This document shows, piece after piece, positions 4,493 through 62,790 of a stretch of 64,000 bases of DNA. How positions within the stretch are numbered: the first letter of the stretch is position 1; each line of letters opens with the position of its first letter. The DNA is taken from positions 186,001-250,000 of the forward strand of contig JAEPQH010000004.1 in assembly GCA_017640605.1 (NCBI GenBank). Reading direction: 5' to 3'. The stretch comes from Balneolaceae bacterium. Its GTDB lineage: Bacteria > Bacteroidota > Rhodothermia > Balneolales > Balneolaceae. The notes under the pieces are model-generated. The model saw only the letters and a program-made list of their open reading frames with translations, was not told the DNA's origin and did not search any database. Position numbers and translations under genes: made by a program.

Positions 4493-5125
4493 ATGAAGCT
4501 CAAAAAATATTTATCGATTTCTTACCTCCTATACTTCTCCTTTGCCGTTACTTTTATTTTCTTGGCCGGGGTTAATGGATATTTGATGTTCCAAAAAACT
4601 ATTGGCTTTTGGCAACCAACGAATGTAATTGTTGGTACAACTCCGGTATTACTTAGCAATAACCATGACGCAACTACTTCATTTGAACATGAAGAGTTAA
4701 CTGTTTCGATTATCAATTCAAACAGTGCACAGGTTGTGGTTTACGGGAACCCGTTAGAAAATTCCGGTGCTTACATTTATCACTCTTTTGTGATTTTCAT
4801 TGAAAAAATTTCGTTTCTATTTGCTCTATTCTGGGGTGCTCTCTTGTTTAAAAATCTTGGCGACGAAAATTACTTTGACTCAAAAAACACCCGGTATCTT
4901 TTCCTTATCGGGTGGACATTATTCCTTACATCCATCTTTTATGAAGTGTTAAACTTCCTCCCTCAACCAATATTAGATGCCCAACCATTTATCGAAGAAG
5001 GAATCGTAATTTTTGAAAGATATTCAACGGAATACCATATGGCGATTGGGTTAATGAGTATTGTATTTGGATATGTGCTAAAAGAAGCCACCCGCATCCA
5101 CGAAGAACAAAAATTAACGGTTTAG
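4493..5125 (+). CDS. DUF2975-like integral membrane protein (second of a tandem pair)
   Basis: A 210-residue protein with four predicted membrane segments (about 8-30, 95-117, 130-152 and 180-200). Its C terminus, FGYVLKEATRIHEEQKLTV, is nearly identical to that of the preceding gene, while the large loop between segments 1 and 2 differs strongly. This is the pattern expected of a tandem duplication with a diverged external loop. It is preceded by a GAGG-type ribosome site and followed 3 bases later by the XRE regulator gene. Cellular role unknown. Confidence 0.7.
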   Translation: MKLKKYLSISYLLYFSFAVTFIFLAGVNGYLMFQKTIGFWQPTNVIVGTTPVLLSNNHDATTSFEHEELTVSIINSNSAQVVVYGNPLENSGAYIYHSFVIFIEKISFLFALFWGALLFKNLGDENYFDSKNTRYLFLIGWTLFLTSIFYEVLNFLPQPILDAQPFIEEGIVIFERYSTEYHMAIGLMSIVFGYVLKEATRIHEEQKLTV

Positions 5126-5128
5126 CAA

Positions 5129-5335
5129 ATGCCAGTAATTGTAAACTTGGATGTAATGCTGGCGAAACGAAAGATGAGCCTAACCGAGCTTTCTGAAAAA
5201 GTGGGAGTTACCATGAGTAATCTTTCCATCCTCAAAACCGGCAAGGCCAAAGCCATTCGCTTTTCCACCCTCGAAGCCATTTGCGAAGTACTCGATTGCC
5301 AACCCGGCGACATTCTGGAATACCGGGAGCAGTAA
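5129..5335 (+). CDS. XRE/Cro-type transcriptional regulator (YozG-like)
   Basis: A 68-residue helix-turn-helix protein. The segment MSLTELSEKVGVTMSNLSIL gives the turn and recognition helix at about residues 14-33, and the C terminus LDCQPGDILEY is the hallmark of small YozG/Cro-like regulators. It is the third gene of a tight three-gene unit with two DUF2975 membrane proteins and probably controls that unit. The palindrome at 3766-3788 is the natural candidate site. The protein has no ligand or dimerisation domain beyond the HTH. Confidence 0.87.
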   Translation: MPVIVNLDVMLAKRKMSLTELSEKVGVTMSNLSILKTGKAKAIRFSTLEAICEVLDCQPGDILEYREQ

Positions 5336-5336
5336 G

Positions 5337-5411
5337 CAATATTCAACATAGAACATTCAACATTCAAAGAATTGTTCACTGCTTATTGAGTGTTGAATAT
5401 TGAATATTGAA
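5337..5411. repeat. Imperfect palindromic intergenic repeat (ATTCAA-rich, TTCACTGCTTATTG core), copy 1
   Basis: Between the XRE gene and radC, a left arm rich in ATTCAACATTCAA pairs imperfectly with a right arm GAGTGTTGAATATTGAATA around a core containing TTCACTGCTTATTG. Two related elements follow at 8288-8356 and 8839-8912 (shared TCACTG, ACTGCTT and CAATATTC blocks). It may also reduce read-through, but it lacks a GC-rich stem with a T-run. Confidence 0.6.
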
Positions 5412-5459
5412 AAAAGTTTGTAAGGAGTTGCTTTGTAATCGATCTAACATGTAAAAAAC

Positions 5460-6191
5460 ATGTGTATTATGATTACAAAAACCGAATCCTTTTCTCACGA
5501 AGACTACTACAATCGAACCGTTAAAGAGATGTTGCCCGATGAGCAGCCTCGCGAAAAACTGCTGAACTACGGCGCCGGATCACTTTCGGATGCAGAGCTA
5601 CTAGCCATTCTCCTGCGTACCGGAACCAAAAAAATGAACGTGGTGGAAACCTCAAGAGCATTGCTCACTCATTTTGGTGGACTGCATCAGCTAGTAAAGC
5701 GAGAATGGAAAGAATTGGGAGTAATTCCGGGAATCGCCAAAGTAAAAGCCATTACGCTGGAAGCAGCGTTTGAGCTTGCACGACGAATTCAGGTTGCCGG
5801 ATTGGGAGAGGAAATTCAGCTCACCTCGCCGGAAACAGTGAGCGCCTATTTTGGGCCTAAACTGCGACATCTGAATCATGAAGTGTTTTACGTGGCTTTC
5901 CTCAACAACAAAAAAGTAATGACCGGATTTCACGAAATCAGCTCTGGGGGAAGCAACGCCACCATCGTTGAACCGGCGGAAGTACTCCGCCAAGCAGTAC
6001 TGCATAAAGCCAATTCCGTCATCCTCGTTCACAACCATCCTTCTGGTGTATGCAAAGCTTCTTCTGCGGATATCAACCTCACTAAACGCATCGCCGAATC
6101 CGGAAAACTCCTCGGCATTCCGGTGGATGATCATGTGATAATTGCGGGGTATGAGTTTGTCTCACTACGCACAGAGCGCTTGTTCAATTAA
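5460..6191 (+). CDS. radC: RadC-family JAB/MPN+ domain protein
   Basis: A 243-residue protein of normal RadC length. The N-terminal half (REKLLNYGAGSLSDAELLAILLRTG) has the UPF0758 helix-hairpin-helix region, and the C-terminal half has the JAB metal-binding motif H-N-H-P-S-G with the second-shell aspartate, at about residues 191-204. The family is often called a DNA repair protein, but the role is not well established. Two in-frame starts (5460 and 5469) are close together. Its last codons and stop lie inside the left arm of the 33-bp inverted repeat that surrounds the next gene. Confidence 0.9.
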   Translation: MCIMITKTESFSHEDYYNRTVKEMLPDEQPREKLLNYGAGSLSDAELLAILLRTGTKKMNVVETSRALLTHFGGLHQLVKREWKELGVIPGIAKVKAITLEAAFELARRIQVAGLGEEIQLTSPETVSAYFGPKLRHLNHEVFYVAFLNNKKVMTGFHEISSGGSNATIVEPAEVLRQAVLHKANSVILVHNHPSGVCKASSADINLTKRIAESGKLLGIPVDDHVIIAGYEFVSLRTERLFN

Positions 6192-6218
6192 GAATTATTC
6201 AATTATCAATTAAGAATG
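6186..6218 (+). repeat. Left arm of a perfect 33-bp inverted repeat around the IVP gene
   Basis: The 33 bases here, AATTAAGAATTATTCAATTA and the next 13, are the exact reverse complement of 6576-6608. The arm begins inside the last codons of radC and ends 12 bases before the ATG of the four-helix-bundle gene. Together the arms could pair into a very long stem with the whole gene as its loop. Confidence 0.9.
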
Positions 6219-6230
6219 GAATTAAGATAG

Positions 6231-6584
6231 ATGAAAGAAAACATTATCCTTAATAAAACCTATACCTTCGCTGTCAGAATAGTTCGTTTACATTCACATC
6301 TTTGTGAAACAAAAAAACAATTTGAAATTGCAAAGCAATTACTCCGAAGTGGAACCTCAATAGGTGCTAATACAGAAGAAGCTATTGGGGCAGAATCAAA
6401 GAAAGATTTTATTCACAAGTTTTCAATTGCGTACAAAGAAGCAAGAGAAACTAAATACTGGCTCCGCTTATTACGCGATTCAGACATAATTGATAATAAA
6501 TTAGCATTATCATTAATTGACGACTGTGAACAAATCTTAGCAATAATTGGAAAAATTAAAATCACCTCTAGAAAACATTCTTAA
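6231..6584 (+). CDS. Four-helix-bundle protein of the 23S rRNA intervening-sequence (IVP/S23) family
   Basis: A 117-residue protein with the family signature: helix 1 ending ..KKQFEIAKQLLRSGTSIGAN, then TEEAIGAESKKDFIHKFSIA and YKEARETKYWLRLLRDSDII. These small proteins were first found inside intervening sequences of 23S rRNA genes and form pentameric helical bundles; their function is not settled, though a role in some mobile elements is suspected. Here the gene stands alone between radC and argS and is enclosed by a perfect 33-bp inverted repeat whose right arm covers its last three codons and stop. It looks like an inserted unit; base composition is AT-rich compared with its neighbours. 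Confidence 0.9.
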   Translation: MKENIILNKTYTFAVRIVRLHSHLCETKKQFEIAKQLLRSGTSIGANTEEAIGAESKKDFIHKFSIAYKEARETKYWLRLLRDSDIIDNKLALSLIDDCEQILAIIGKIKITSRKHS

Positions 6585-6608
6585 TTGATAATTGAATAAT
6601 TCTTAATT
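6576..6608 (-). repeat. Right arm of a perfect 33-bp inverted repeat around the IVP gene
   Basis: Exact reverse complement of 6186-6218, starting with CATTCTTAATTGATAATTGA. It overlaps the final three codons and stop of the IVP gene. A partial further copy of the unit (CTTAATTGATA) follows at once, up to about 6619. Confidence 0.9.
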
Positions 6609-6625
6609 CTTAATTGATACACCCT

Positions 6626-6635
6626 TATCTTTTAA
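6626..6635 (+). promoter_or_regulatory. Promoter-like decamer ahead of argS (variant)
   Basis: TATCTTTTAA, 21 bases before the argS ATG, is a variant of the TATNTTYTGC decamer seen upstream of five other genes in the window. It lies just past the IVP inverted repeat, so argS probably has its own promoter. Weak evidence on its own. Confidence 0.3.
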
Positions 6636-6656
6636 GAAATCCGAATAATTCTCCCA

Positions 6657-8282
6657 ATGACCGAATATTTAAAACAAATCCTGTCCGACGCACTAACGAA
6701 GTTTGAGCTAGACGAAACTCCTGAAATACAGCTAGAAGCACCAAAAGATCCAACGCATGGTGATGCTTCTACAAACCTGGCAATGACTCTGGCCCGTCCG
6801 CTTCGAAATAACCCAAGAGCGATTGCCACACAAATTATCGAAGCACTTGAGTATGATGAGCGCAAAATTTCATCGGTGGAAATTGCTGGGCCGGGTTTTA
6901 TCAACTTTCGATATGCTGAAGATTATTTATACGATGAATTAGCTTCCATCATCGAAGAAGGAGAAGCGTTTGGGAAATCGGAGTTGAATTCGGGAAAAAA
7001 AGTGCAGATCGAGTTTGTGAGCGCTAACCCAACCGGACCGCTTACTGTAGGTCATGGTAGAAATGCCGTTTTGGGCGACACTGTGGCTCGCTTAATGGAA
7101 TGGACGGGAGCAGAGTTGGATCGTGAATATTACTTCAACAACGCCGGGCGACAAATGCGTGTATTGGGACAGTCGGTGCAGGCGCGATATTTGGAAATTT
7201 TAGGCAAGGATTCTGAATTCCCCGAAGGCGGATACGAAGGCGAGTACATTAAAGATATCGCCCAGGAATTAGCCGATGAAAAAGGAGTTGCTTTAGTCGA
7301 TTCAGATTGGACGCCCTTCAAAGAAAAAGCCGAACAGGCGATCTTTGCTGATATCGACGCTACGCTGAAGCGCATGAACATCCACATGGACAATCATTTT
7401 AATGAACACGATCTCTACGAAAATGGTGACATTGAATCTGTCGTGGCGCGACTTCGCGAAAAAGGACTGGTATACGATGCCGACGGGGCTACCTGGTTTA
7501 AGACGACAGAGTTTGGCAAAGAAAAAGATACAGTATTGATCAAAAGCACGGGTGAACCAACCTATCGTCTGCCCGATATCGCGTATCATGCCAACAAACT
7601 CGATCGTGGTTACGACATGTGTATCGATGTATTTGGTGCCGATCACATTGCTACTTATCCCGATGTACTTTCAGGGATTTCAGCCCTTGGCTACGACAAA
7701 GAGAAAGTAGATGTGGTGATTTACCAGTTCGTGACGATCGTAAAAGACGGCAAGCCATTTAAAATGAGCACCCGTAAAGCGAACTTCGTCACGCTCGACG
7801 AACTGATGGATGAAGTCGGCGCCGATGTGACTCGTTTCTTCTTTTTGATGCGATCCCCAAATACTCATCTCGAATTCGACATCGCTCAAGCCAAAGAAGC
7901 GGGTGAGAAAAATCCGGTATTTTATTTGCAATATGCCCATGCACGAATTTGCAGCATCCTTCGCAAAGCAGAGGAAGAATATTCTTTTAAAATAGAAGTT
8001 CAACTGAATCTACTGAAAGAAGATGCTGAGACAGCACTCATCAAAACCTTATTTAAATTCCCGAAAGCGATTCAAAGCGCCGCCGAAGCTCGTGAACCTC
8101 ATCGTTTGATTAATTACCTGAATGATGTGGCTTCCGCATTCACAACTTTCTACCATGATTGCAGAATTATCGGAGTGGATGCAGATTTGGCTCAAGCCCG
8201 AATCGCTTTAGCTAAAACTACAGCTCAAACATTGAAAAACGGCTTGACCATTTTAGGAATTACCGCGCCGGAACGAATGTAG
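6657..8282 (+). CDS. argS: Arginyl-tRNA synthetase
   Basis: A 541-residue class I synthetase that charges tRNA-Arg with arginine. The N-terminal Arg-tRNA-synthetase additional domain is followed by the HIGH-type signature NPTGPLTVGHGRNAVLGD at about residues 124-141. The KMSKS-type loop is KMSTR at about 369-373, and the anticodon-binding domain ends with the family's ALKNGLTILGITAPERM-like tail. Length is normal. The gene has an ATG start at 6657 and is preceded by the IVP element and followed by palindromic repeats. Essential housekeeping gene; no defect seen. Confidence 0.97.
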   Translation: MTEYLKQILSDALTKFELDETPEIQLEAPKDPTHGDASTNLAMTLARPLRNNPRAIATQIIEALEYDERKISSVEIAGPGFINFRYAEDYLYDELASIIEEGEAFGKSELNSGKKVQIEFVSANPTGPLTVGHGRNAVLGDTVARLMEWTGAELDREYYFNNAGRQMRVLGQSVQARYLEILGKDSEFPEGGYEGEYIKDIAQELADEKGVALVDSDWTPFKEKAEQAIFADIDATLKRMNIHMDNHFNEHDLYENGDIESVVARLREKGLVYDADGATWFKTTEFGKEKDTVLIKSTGEPTYRLPDIAYHANKLDRGYDMCIDVFGADHIATYPDVLSGISALGYDKEKVDVVIYQFVTIVKDGKPFKMSTRKANFVTLDELMDEVGADVTRFFFLMRSPNTHLEFDIAQAKEAGEKNPVFYLQYAHARICSILRKAEEEYSFKIEVQLNLLKEDAETALIKTLFKFPKAIQSAAEAREPHRLINYLNDVASAFTTFYHDCRIIGVDADLAQARIALAKTTAQTLKNGLTILGITAPERM

Positions 8283-8287
8283 AGGGG

Positions 8288-8356
8288 CCAATATCCAATA
8301 ACCAACAAGCAGTTTTCAGTGATCACTGTTTACTGCTTGGTGAATATTGGTTATTG
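8288..8356. repeat. Palindromic intergenic repeat, copy 2
   Basis: The left arm ends CAACAAGCAGT and the right arm starts ACTGCTTGGTG; both arms continue with AATATTGG/CCAATAT blocks. In the centre is a second, perfect 12-base palindrome, CAGTGATCACTG (8317-8328). The same blocks recur at 8839-8912 and in part at 5337-5411. It lies directly after the argS stop. Confidence 0.65.
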
Positions 8357-8380
8357 TATTTACTCACTTTATAGATCTAA

Positions 8381-8809
8381 ATGAAAAAACTTTTATTCTT
8401 ATATATTTCACTTGGCTTTCTAAGTTGTGAGCTTTTTAACAAAGAACAGGTTGAAAAAATAGAAGATGGAATAACTGAATATCCTTTCTCTTGTGAAGAA
8501 GTATCAGATTATTTTATAGTAGCTGAACGAATGCCAGTACTTCAAGGTGGGCTGGGAGAACTTCAACGCAAAGTTAATTATCCCGACTCTGCTCATCAAG
8601 CCGGTATTGAAGGTCGGGTTCAAGTGCACTTTGTGGTTTCTGAAAAAGGAAATGTACTTTGTCCTATGGTTACTAGGGGGATTGGCTATGGATGTGATGA
8701 AGAAGCTCTAGAGGTAGTTTCTAAAGCAACGTTTAATCCCGGTATGCAAGACGGAATACCAGTAAAGGTAGAGTATTCGCTTCCTATTGTTTTTAGATTA
8801 GATAATTAG
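8381..8809 (+). CDS. Lipoprotein carrying a TonB C-terminal domain
   Basis: A 142-residue protein with a lipoprotein signal peptide (MKKLLFLYISLGFLSC, cysteine at about residue 16). From about residue 60 on it has a TonB C-terminal fold: YPDSAHQAGIEGRVQVHFVV, then ALEVVSKATFNPGMQDG and a final VEYSLPIVFRL strand. True TonB is held in the inner membrane by one helix and driven by ExbB/ExbD; this protein lacks that helix and the proline-rich spacer, so it is unlikely to transduce energy itself. It stands alone between two repeat elements. Function unknown. Confidence 0.75.
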   Translation: MKKLLFLYISLGFLSCELFNKEQVEKIEDGITEYPFSCEEVSDYFIVAERMPVLQGGLGELQRKVNYPDSAHQAGIEGRVQVHFVVSEKGNVLCPMVTRGIGYGCDEEALEVVSKATFNPGMQDGIPVKVEYSLPIVFRLDN

Positions 8810-8838
8810 TTCAACACAGGGAAGGAGACAGGGTTACT

Positions 8839-8912
8839 TCAATAACCAATAAATAGTAGTCAATATTCAATGATCACTGAAAACTGCTTGCTGGATATTG
8901 TTTACTGAAATT
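8839..8912. repeat. Palindromic intergenic repeat, copy 3
   Basis: Contains CAATAACCAAT, CAATATTCAATGATCACTG and ACTGCTTGCTGGATATTG, the same building blocks as copy 2 at 8288-8356. The arms CAATATTCA and TGGATATTG pair imperfectly. Confidence 0.55.
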
Positions 8913-8918
8913 GTCTTT

Positions 8919-9002
8919 CACCACTGAGTTCACAGAGAAAACAGAGGAATCATTATTTACCCTCACACAATCATACTCTGCGAACTTAGTGCCCTCTGTG
9001 GT
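8919..9002. repeat. Imperfect inverted repeat of the CACTGAGTTCACAGAG / CTCTGTGGT type
   Basis: The left side reads CACCACTGAGTTCACAGAG and the right side CTCTGCGAACTTAGTGCCCTC followed by TGTGGT. The arms are near reverse complements, about 40 bases apart. Similar sequences are widespread intergenic repeats in unrelated bacteria; no gene is inside. Confidence 0.5.
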
Positions 9003-61600: not shown

Positions 61601-61686
61601 AACGTAATTATCAGTTCTCCATTTGCAAGGAGATTTTGACGAAGAAATCTCTGAATCCCGTTTGTCGCCAAGTACTTAAACTGGTT

Positions 61687-61758
61687 CAAGCGTCCGCTTG
61701 GACCATTGAGGCAACCGTTACCTAAACGTTAGACCTAACTCGCACAAGCGGACGCTTG
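61687..61758. repeat. REP-like inverted pair (CAAGCGTCCGCTTG ... CAAGCGGACGCTTG), copy 1
   Basis: Two hairpins, 61687-61700 and 61745-61758, are each perfect 6-bp stems (CAAGCG/CGCTTG) and are reverse complements of each other, as in bacterial BIME elements. A trailing GCGCTAG motif recurs at the later copies. No gene is in this 299-base gap. Confidence 0.8.
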
Positions 61759-61769
61759 CGCTAGATTGG

Positions 61770-61805: not shown

Positions 61806-61888
61806 AAGCCATTCCTTTATCAGTTCTTCATAATTTTTTGGTAGTAGTTGGTATCTACTTTATATAACCAACAAGTTGCACATGCAAC

Positions 61889-61894
61889 AGGAGG
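61889..61894 (+). promoter_or_regulatory. Strong Shine-Dalgarno site deciding the start of the cytidylate-kinase-like gene
   Basis: AGGAGG, 5 bases before the ATG at 61900, is by far the best ribosome site seen in the window. It decides for the ATG at 61900 over the TTG at 61876 and the ATG at 61882. Confidence 0.85.
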
Positions 61895-61899
61895 TTGTT

Positions 61900-62601
61900 A
61901 TGGCAAAACGAGTTAGCCAAATGATTGAAGAACAAGTTCACGTATGGCGAATGAGCCATAAATCGGAACAACGCCCGCCGAAAGGCACTACCTTGCCTGT
62001 AATCACTATCTCCAGATCTTTCGGTGCACGCGGTGCCGAAATTGCTACACTCTTAGAACATCGACTTGGTTTTAAGGTGTGGGACAAGGAAATCCTGAAT
62101 GTGATTAGCGAACGGCTGGGGAGTTCGGTTGAGTTTTTAGAATCTCTGGATGAACATGCTCAGAATTTGGTTGAAGATACCATTTTTGGGTTCCTGAATA
62201 GAAAAAGCACCAATCTGAACTATTTACTGTATCTGGCCCGAGCGGTACAGGCAATCGAAAAATTCGGAAGCGCAATTATCGTTGGTCGAGGTGCGAACCA
62301 CATTGTAAAAAACAAACAGGCACTTCATGTTCGAGTAGTGGCCCCGATGAGCGAAAGAGTTAAATGGTTAACGGACAGTCGCAATATCAGTAAAGAGGAA
62401 GCAAAAAATCTGATACTGGAATACGATAAAGACCGAGCAGAATTTACGCGCGTCAGCTTTAACAAAGATATAAATGAGGCTTCGAATTACGATATAACTC
62501 TGAACGTAGGCACCATCAGTTTACAACAAGCCGCCTATATTATTGCAGAAGTGTATGAGATGAAAACAGGAATAAAAATACCAGAGCTGACACACGGTTA
62601 A
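61900..62601 (+). CDS. Cytidylate-kinase-like family protein
   Basis: A 233-residue P-loop kinase-like protein (MAKRVSQMIEEQVHVWRMSH start). The strand-loop ITISRSFGARGAEIA near residue 40 takes the place of a classic P-loop, and IIVGRGANHIVKNK near 132 and HVRVVAPMSERVKWL (NMP-kinase lid region) match the Cytidylate_kinase2 family. True activity of this family is mostly unproven. The gene stands alone among repeat DNA and has an unusually strong ribosome site, which hints at a different origin from its neighbours. Confidence 0.8.
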   Translation: MAKRVSQMIEEQVHVWRMSHKSEQRPPKGTTLPVITISRSFGARGAEIATLLEHRLGFKVWDKEILNVISERLGSSVEFLESLDEHAQNLVEDTIFGFLNRKSTNLNYLLYLARAVQAIEKFGSAIIVGRGANHIVKNKQALHVRVVAPMSERVKWLTDSRNISKEEAKNLILEYDKDRAEFTRVSFNKDINEASNYDITLNVGTISLQQAAYIIAEVYEMKTGIKIPELTHG

Positions 62602-62718
62602 ACTGGAATACGCATGTTAATGGTCATACTCAGATCGGTGTGATGAATCTGTGTTTTCAGTAGGATTGGAGTAATGTTTAGCAGAGGTTGTTACTCGTTC
62701 CCAACTCTTGATCTGGTT

Positions 62719-62790
62719 CAAGCGTCCGCTTGGACCAATTTACCGGACGTTATCTTAATAATTGAAAGAGCTTGAACAAGCGGATGCTTG
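62719..62790. repeat. REP-like inverted pair, copy 2
   Basis: CAAGCGTCCGCTTG at 62719-62732 is a perfect stem. Its partner CAAGCGGATGCTTG at 62777-62790 has one stem change (G-T wobble). The stretch GACGTTATCTTAATAATTGA between them recurs almost unchanged at 63443-63470. Confidence 0.75.

Follow-up and report, generated by a model that had tools for sequence, protein, structure and literature searches.

An IVP gene between inverted 7-8-nt phased arrays at radC-argS: a probable compact insertion unit

RAYTs are HUH/Y1 enzymes whose small genes lie between inverted copies of a short repeat, REP. Further copies of REP are scattered through the genome. The repeat co-evolves with the protein, and complementarity is preserved (PMC2817692). 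Each REP is a G+C-rich palindrome headed by a GTAG-type motif. Intervening sequences (IVS) of 23S rRNA, as in Coxiella burnetii, carry an S23p/IVP open reading frame (ORF) in a loop, measure about 0.45 kb and have complementary ends (PMC4990558). They sit in rRNA helices and are excised by RNase III. Heptamer repeats are a further point of comparison. Intergenic TAACTGA repeats occur in Beggiatoaceae, Cyanobacteria and Bacteroidetes, and their spread is unexplained (PMC4679880). Similarly, GGGAATC is found in Xanthomonas, with about 70 closely spaced inverted pairs per genome, and GGGGA(C/T)T in Nostoc (PMC4692102). Finally, the Avd protein of diversity-generating retroelements, which works with a reverse transcriptase, is related to IVP in fold and family (PMC10053308).

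Here, we describe an IVP gene located between radC and argS. The window, meaning the whole stretch of 64,000 nucleotides that was analysed, contains the following features at this locus.

5460..6191, + strand: radC, the upstream neighbour, with its 3' end inside the left arm
6186..6218, + strand: left arm, AATTAAG/AATTATTC/AATTATC/AATTAAG/AATG, a phased array of 7-8-nt units
6231..6584, + strand: IVP (four-helix-bundle) gene, 117 amino acids; PF05635, TIGR02436
6576..6608, - strand: right arm, exact reverse complement of the left arm
6599..6619, + strand: extra repeat unit past the right arm, ATTCTTAATTCTTAATTGATA
6657..8282, + strand: argS, the downstream neighbour

The arms are complementary at 33 of 33 positions, with 357 nt between them. 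This confirms the perfect 33-bp inverted repeat around the IVP gene reported in a preliminary description of this DNA. The same description placed the arms over the ends of radC and of the IVP gene, and the stop codons agree: that of radC (6189-6191) falls inside the left arm and the right arm includes the final 9 nt of the IVP gene with its stop codon. The inverted score of the flanks was 33, compared to a best of 12 in 500 dinucleotide shuffles of both flanks. This is also the top score among the 62 ORFs of the window. No third copy of the arm, at up to three mismatches, was found within the window. The arm is AT-rich, has a period of 7 and is not reported as a palindrome. The enclosed ORF is intact and matches PF05635 (E 5e-26) and TIGR02436 (E 8e-30). 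PF05635 is the only domain matched in the protein, and a solved relative is 2rld (E 1e-25, five chains). The host genome, a draft assembly, has about 15 PF05635 matches. We know of no established function for PF05635 genes.

We then scored the flanks of IVP genes elsewhere. Briefly, the flank score is the best ungapped inverted match between 250-nt flanks, and IVP genes were compared to every other ORF of the same regions. Simple rules served to call gene starts and control ORFs, and the Bacteroidota sample consisted of regions of about 20 kb around IVP genes. The 89 Bacteroidota IVP genes had a median score of 13 and 36% scored at least 16; for controls, the values were 9 and 0.5%. Swapping flanks between Bacteroidota loci left 0% at this level, and matches in direct orientation were barely enriched. 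At viral-contig IVP loci, 77% scored at least 16. For 76 IVP loci from genomes of many phyla the figure was 47%, dropping to the control level with swapped flanks. Pooled, 47% of 207 IVP genes scored at least 16 versus 1.2% of 1,695 control ORFs. Effective numbers are smaller than these, since many loci among the 207 are related. About half of the pooled IVP genes have no clear inverted repeat. Most of the high-scoring controls were themselves second IVP genes or lay next to IVP units. The preliminary description had made its reading depend on IVP genes elsewhere having flanking inverted repeats. They have them in the Bacteroidota, viral-contig and many-phyla sets. The frame suggests that tiny insertion elements of this type are widespread and, it appears, undescribed so far. 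Among the papers that we found in the open PMC literature, no link of IVP genes to these repeats is made. A term search of PMC4679880 and PMC4692102 returned no mention of IVP.

The arms have a common anatomy. Those scoring at least 16 have a median length of 30 nt, and 95 of 98 show periodicity at a lag of 7, 14 or 8; control DNA does so in about 9% of cases per lag. From arm to arm, the unit has a median length of 478 bp. The arm sequence differs from locus to locus but matches between the two sides, in units of 7 nt and sometimes 8 nt. IVP genes of cyanobacterial plasmids display the frame clearly, for example with arrays of TAGGGAG to the one side and of CTCCCTA to the other. On the gene strand, the arm upstream of the gene is poor in C (11%, with 32% G). 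The outer edge of the left arm lies at the stop codon of the co-directional upstream gene (median +1 nt). In part, this position is expected from the shortness of operon gaps and the presence of stop codons within arms.

Arm and gene are linked. Similar arms at different sites were found for 40% of pairs with proteins at least 65% identical, and for about 1% of pairs below 45%. On the protein tree, unit lengths of 7 and 8 are clustered, with 11 changes versus 15 expected; one or two of 500 shuffles gave so low a number. The arms are also dispersed. Outside this locus, the window arm recurs as solo copies, each about 33 nt long, both in the host and in several genera related to it. For 37 arms, the density of copies in the same genome, IVP loci excluded, is 2.76 per Mb, compared to 0.06 for control k-mers. 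Period-7 arrays also exist without IVP genes, and TAACTGA repeated three times in viral contigs was within 300 nt of an IVP gene at 0 of 80 loci. We therefore reject an origin of all heptamer arrays from IVP.

Other repeats of the window deserve mention. Upstream of radC, a hairpin without a gene (5337-5409) has CAACATTC-type repeats and resembles a solo derivative of IVP units. Just past argS, a second inverted pair (8289-8363 and 8833-8907; 75 nt, 75% complementary) frames an ORF with a TonB_C domain (8381-8809). The arm at 8289-8363 is itself a hairpin, so this pair appears to be a palindromic repeat in two copies, not an IVP-type frame. REP-like hairpins of the CAAGCGGACGCTTG type (61678-61767 and 62711-62732) flank a cytidylate-kinase-like gene (61876-62601, PF13189).

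One alternative is a host gene with ordinary inverted repeats, either local slippage products or terminator-like hairpins, as may surround any intergenic gene. Strong purifying selection and vertical inheritance at radC-argS, described below, would suit a host gene, as would the occurrence of heptamer arrays without IVP. However, inverted flanks are about 40 times rarer for control ORFs of the same regions and the match is lost when flanks are swapped. Furthermore, 31 of 50 intergenic arrays with a period of 6 to 9 lie no more than 200 nt from an IVP gene, a zone comprising 2.3% of bases, and conserved operons provide both filled and empty sites. We consider an ordinary host gene quite improbable. 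Our preferred interpretation, which we think probably correct, is that the feature is a compact insertion unit: an IVP gene between two inverted arrays of phased 7-8-nt repeats.

The array-gene-array block of about 0.5 kb is a discrete unit, present or absent as a whole at identical junctions in related cyanobacterial plasmids. Between an integrase gene and the next gene, the site is filled in Calothrix brevissima NIES-22 and repeat-free in Tolypothrix 7601; Aulosira and Nostoc carneum also lack the block there. Between TraM and the gene that follows, it is filled in Nostoc C052 and N. edaphicum, and repeat-free in Nostoc C057. Between nrdB and nrdA, N. edaphicum has the unit in antisense and Calothrix NIES-4105 is repeat-free. 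At the junction used in C052, Nostoc ATCC 53789 has the inverted arrays with the gene absent. Together with the lack of rRNA reported below, these repeat-free sites in near relatives bear out the earlier suggestion of a stand-alone insertion outside rRNA. No target-site duplication was visible by eye in the cyanobacterial filled and empty pairs. We found no near-identical IVP unit at a second site other than tandem duplicates, and plasmids had no recent transposed copies besides the orthologous site; no recent transposition was caught. One cyanobacterial query gave no IVP match in phage records.

Several further locations were observed. In a type I-D CRISPR-Cas operon of Pseudanabaena, an IVP unit (L399, 2501-2860) separates cas6 from cas4. 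Such hitchhiking might explain the reported CRISPR links of 23S rRNA IVP. At three Bacteroidota loci (L209, L212 and L130), IVP units and arrays lie amid genes of a fatty-acid beta-oxidation-like operon, read by eye from translations as 3-hydroxyacyl-CoA dehydrogenase, thiolase and acyl-CoA dehydrogenase. In one genus (L096, L278, L279), three or four different IVP genes are found within about 6 kb, and IVP copy number seems to vary between species.

The unit at radC-argS is old. Compared to the sister species (G001), the IVP gene has a dS of 0.92 and a dN/dS of 0.024, indicating purifying selection; dN/dS for radC is 0.042. An IVP gene at this site is common to several genera, and most near relatives have one there. 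In three genomes without the unit (G003, G015, G024), the radC-argS gap is 66-78 nt. The same-genus genome G002 has no IVP gene here but repeat remnants only, including the unit seen at 6599..6619. By eye, from translations, one relative has a GxxExxY-like gene together with an IVP gene between radC and argS, and another has a GxxExxY-like gene alone. No clean empty sites were found between the host and G001; alternate sites carry other repeats. The window copy is old and vertically kept, its gene predating the split from the sister species, and it is not a new arrival. Perfect identity of the arms had been put down to recent insertion or active maintenance. We reject the first, given the dS value and the presence in several genera. 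The second was upheld by a permutation test. Across eight IVP-bearing genomes, the total pairing of left and right arms with their own partners at radC-argS was matched by just 2 of 40,320 permutations. The arms diverge between genomes yet remain complementary. Since the gene is old, and the arms change but stay complementary, the perfect match reflects upkeep and not recency. Arm co-evolution reached no significance across 10 orthologue groups (p = 0.11); the clear case is radC-argS taken by itself.

Complementarity could be kept in RNA or in DNA. An RNA-level element would behave like a 23S rRNA IVS: the transcript would fold into a long stem, RNase III would cut this stem and release the IVP message from the transcript of the host operon, and the arms would be kept for RNA pairing. 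Consistent with this, both arms pair in the predicted RNA fold (z = -7.4), their complementarity is maintained and 65% of units are co-oriented with both neighbours. In Coxiella, RNase III excises an IVS that likewise has complementary sequence at its borders (PMC4990558). However, selection for RNA pairing should leave more G-U than A-C mismatches. We counted 124 G-T and 140 A-C mismatches in the arms and hence no G-U excess, which argues for a DNA-level cause. Candidates are hairpin extrusion, arm-to-arm conversion and protein-recognised ends. Units also occur in either orientation, with 33 of 200 on the strand opposite to both neighbours, and the genome contains scattered solo arms and units that lack the gene. 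No Rfam rRNA match was found in 5000-9000 of the window, and no rRNA in any of 18 loci tested. We thus reject both selection on an RNA stem and an rRNA location for a unit lying between radC and argS, and regard an RNA-level element as unlikely. RNA cleavage might still occur as a by-product, which is compatible with the absent G-U excess. Of the earlier claims, RNA processing is not borne out. The proposed kinship with 23S rRNA IVS stands for protein family and outline only.

A second protein family is framed in a related manner. Among 66 loci with GxxExxY genes (PF13366), 32% scored at least 16, compared to 5% of controls and 0.4% with swapped flanks. Periodicity of these arms peaks at lags 9 and 8, not 7. 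At L405-L434 and L446-L485, GxxExxY genes are framed by inverted 8-9-nt units, for example ACGCAGAG or TCTGAATTAGGATT. Hence, the length of the repeat unit tracks the family of the protein between the arms, suggesting some connection between protein and repeat. As a positive control, the flank test applied to Y1_Tnp/RAYT genes recovered the known REP architecture.

IVP and GxxExxY genes could instead be passengers, cargo between inverted copies of arrays that a Y1/RAYT or IS200-like transposase moves. Solo arrays do exist. In 61 genomes, uncorrected for kinship, IVP counts correlate with those of Y1_Tnp (rho 0.57) and GxxExxY (rho 0.69). However, Y1_Tnp is absent from 4 of 29 IVP-rich genomes, and the repeats associated with RAYT in the same genomes form another kind of hairpin. 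That unit length follows the enclosed protein family, and clades, is unexpected for cargo. A passenger role therefore seems rather unlikely to us. A retro-element partner is hardly credible. Here, IVP would serve a reverse transcriptase that copies the unit, as Avd does, and PF05635 proteins do resemble Avd (PMC10053308). Against this, no RVT_1 match was found in the host (G000) or in five related genomes with 8-16 IVP genes, so hosts rich in the unit are free of the enzyme. The correlation of IVP and RVT_1 counts over the 61 genomes is 0.02. We reject a reverse-transcriptase partner on these grounds.

For the compact insertion unit, a mechanism can be proposed. The arms would be the recognition ends of the unit. 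Oligomeric IVP may bind the phased arm units as DNA, probably single-stranded or extruded as a hairpin. Such binding could favour the spread or persistence of the unit and of its solo arms, in a role much like that of RAYT proteins towards REP repeats. Because no catalytic domain is recognised in IVP, another enzyme, of the host or acting in trans, must cut and join the strands. A broader reading is possible, although we hold it tentatively. Small DNA elements of a large class not yet described may have IVP and, separately, GxxExxY as their dedicated agents. The oligomer would read a phased single-stranded repeat, each subunit taking up roughly one unit, of 7 nt in IVP and 8-9 nt in GxxExxY, and would drive the birth and spread of locus-specific inverted arrays. 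If true, many of the heptamer repeats long known from the genomes of bacteria, cyanobacteria included, would find their explanation here. PF05635 genes are common and occur in many phyla, and inverted phased repeats provide a concrete lead on their target. The tie between IVP and the repeats connects the intervening sequences of rRNA to copies that stand alone, and some of the intergenic heptamer arrays, whose spread is unexplained (PMC4679880), gain a possible origin. It also enables a simple test, the binding of IVP to its own arm.

How does the unit compare to known systems? No reverse transcriptase was detected in the element or the host genome, which sets the unit apart from Avd-type systems. 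The heptamer repeats are of the same type as IVP arms, and the cyanobacterial arms TAGGGAG and AGGGAAC are similar in style. This link is partial, as TAACTGA arrays of viral contigs are not near IVP genes. The 23S rRNA IVS share a PF05635/S23p-type protein, complementary ends, a size near 0.45 kb and the placement of the ORF in the loop. They differ in lying inside an rRNA gene, whereas IVP units lie between protein genes in either orientation, have period-7 arms and leave dispersed solo arms. As in IS and MITE elements, the window unit has terminal inverted repeats. RAYT/REP differs in enzyme and repeat: there is no Y1 (PF01797) gene in the unit and no GTAG/CGTC-headed palindrome, the IVP arms being non-palindromic arrays of phased 7-8-nt repeats. 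Nevertheless, the unit resembles RAYT/REP in its small gene between inverted repeat copies, in the dispersal of that inverted repeat through the genome, in the joint evolution of repeat and protein and in the preserved complementarity of its arms.
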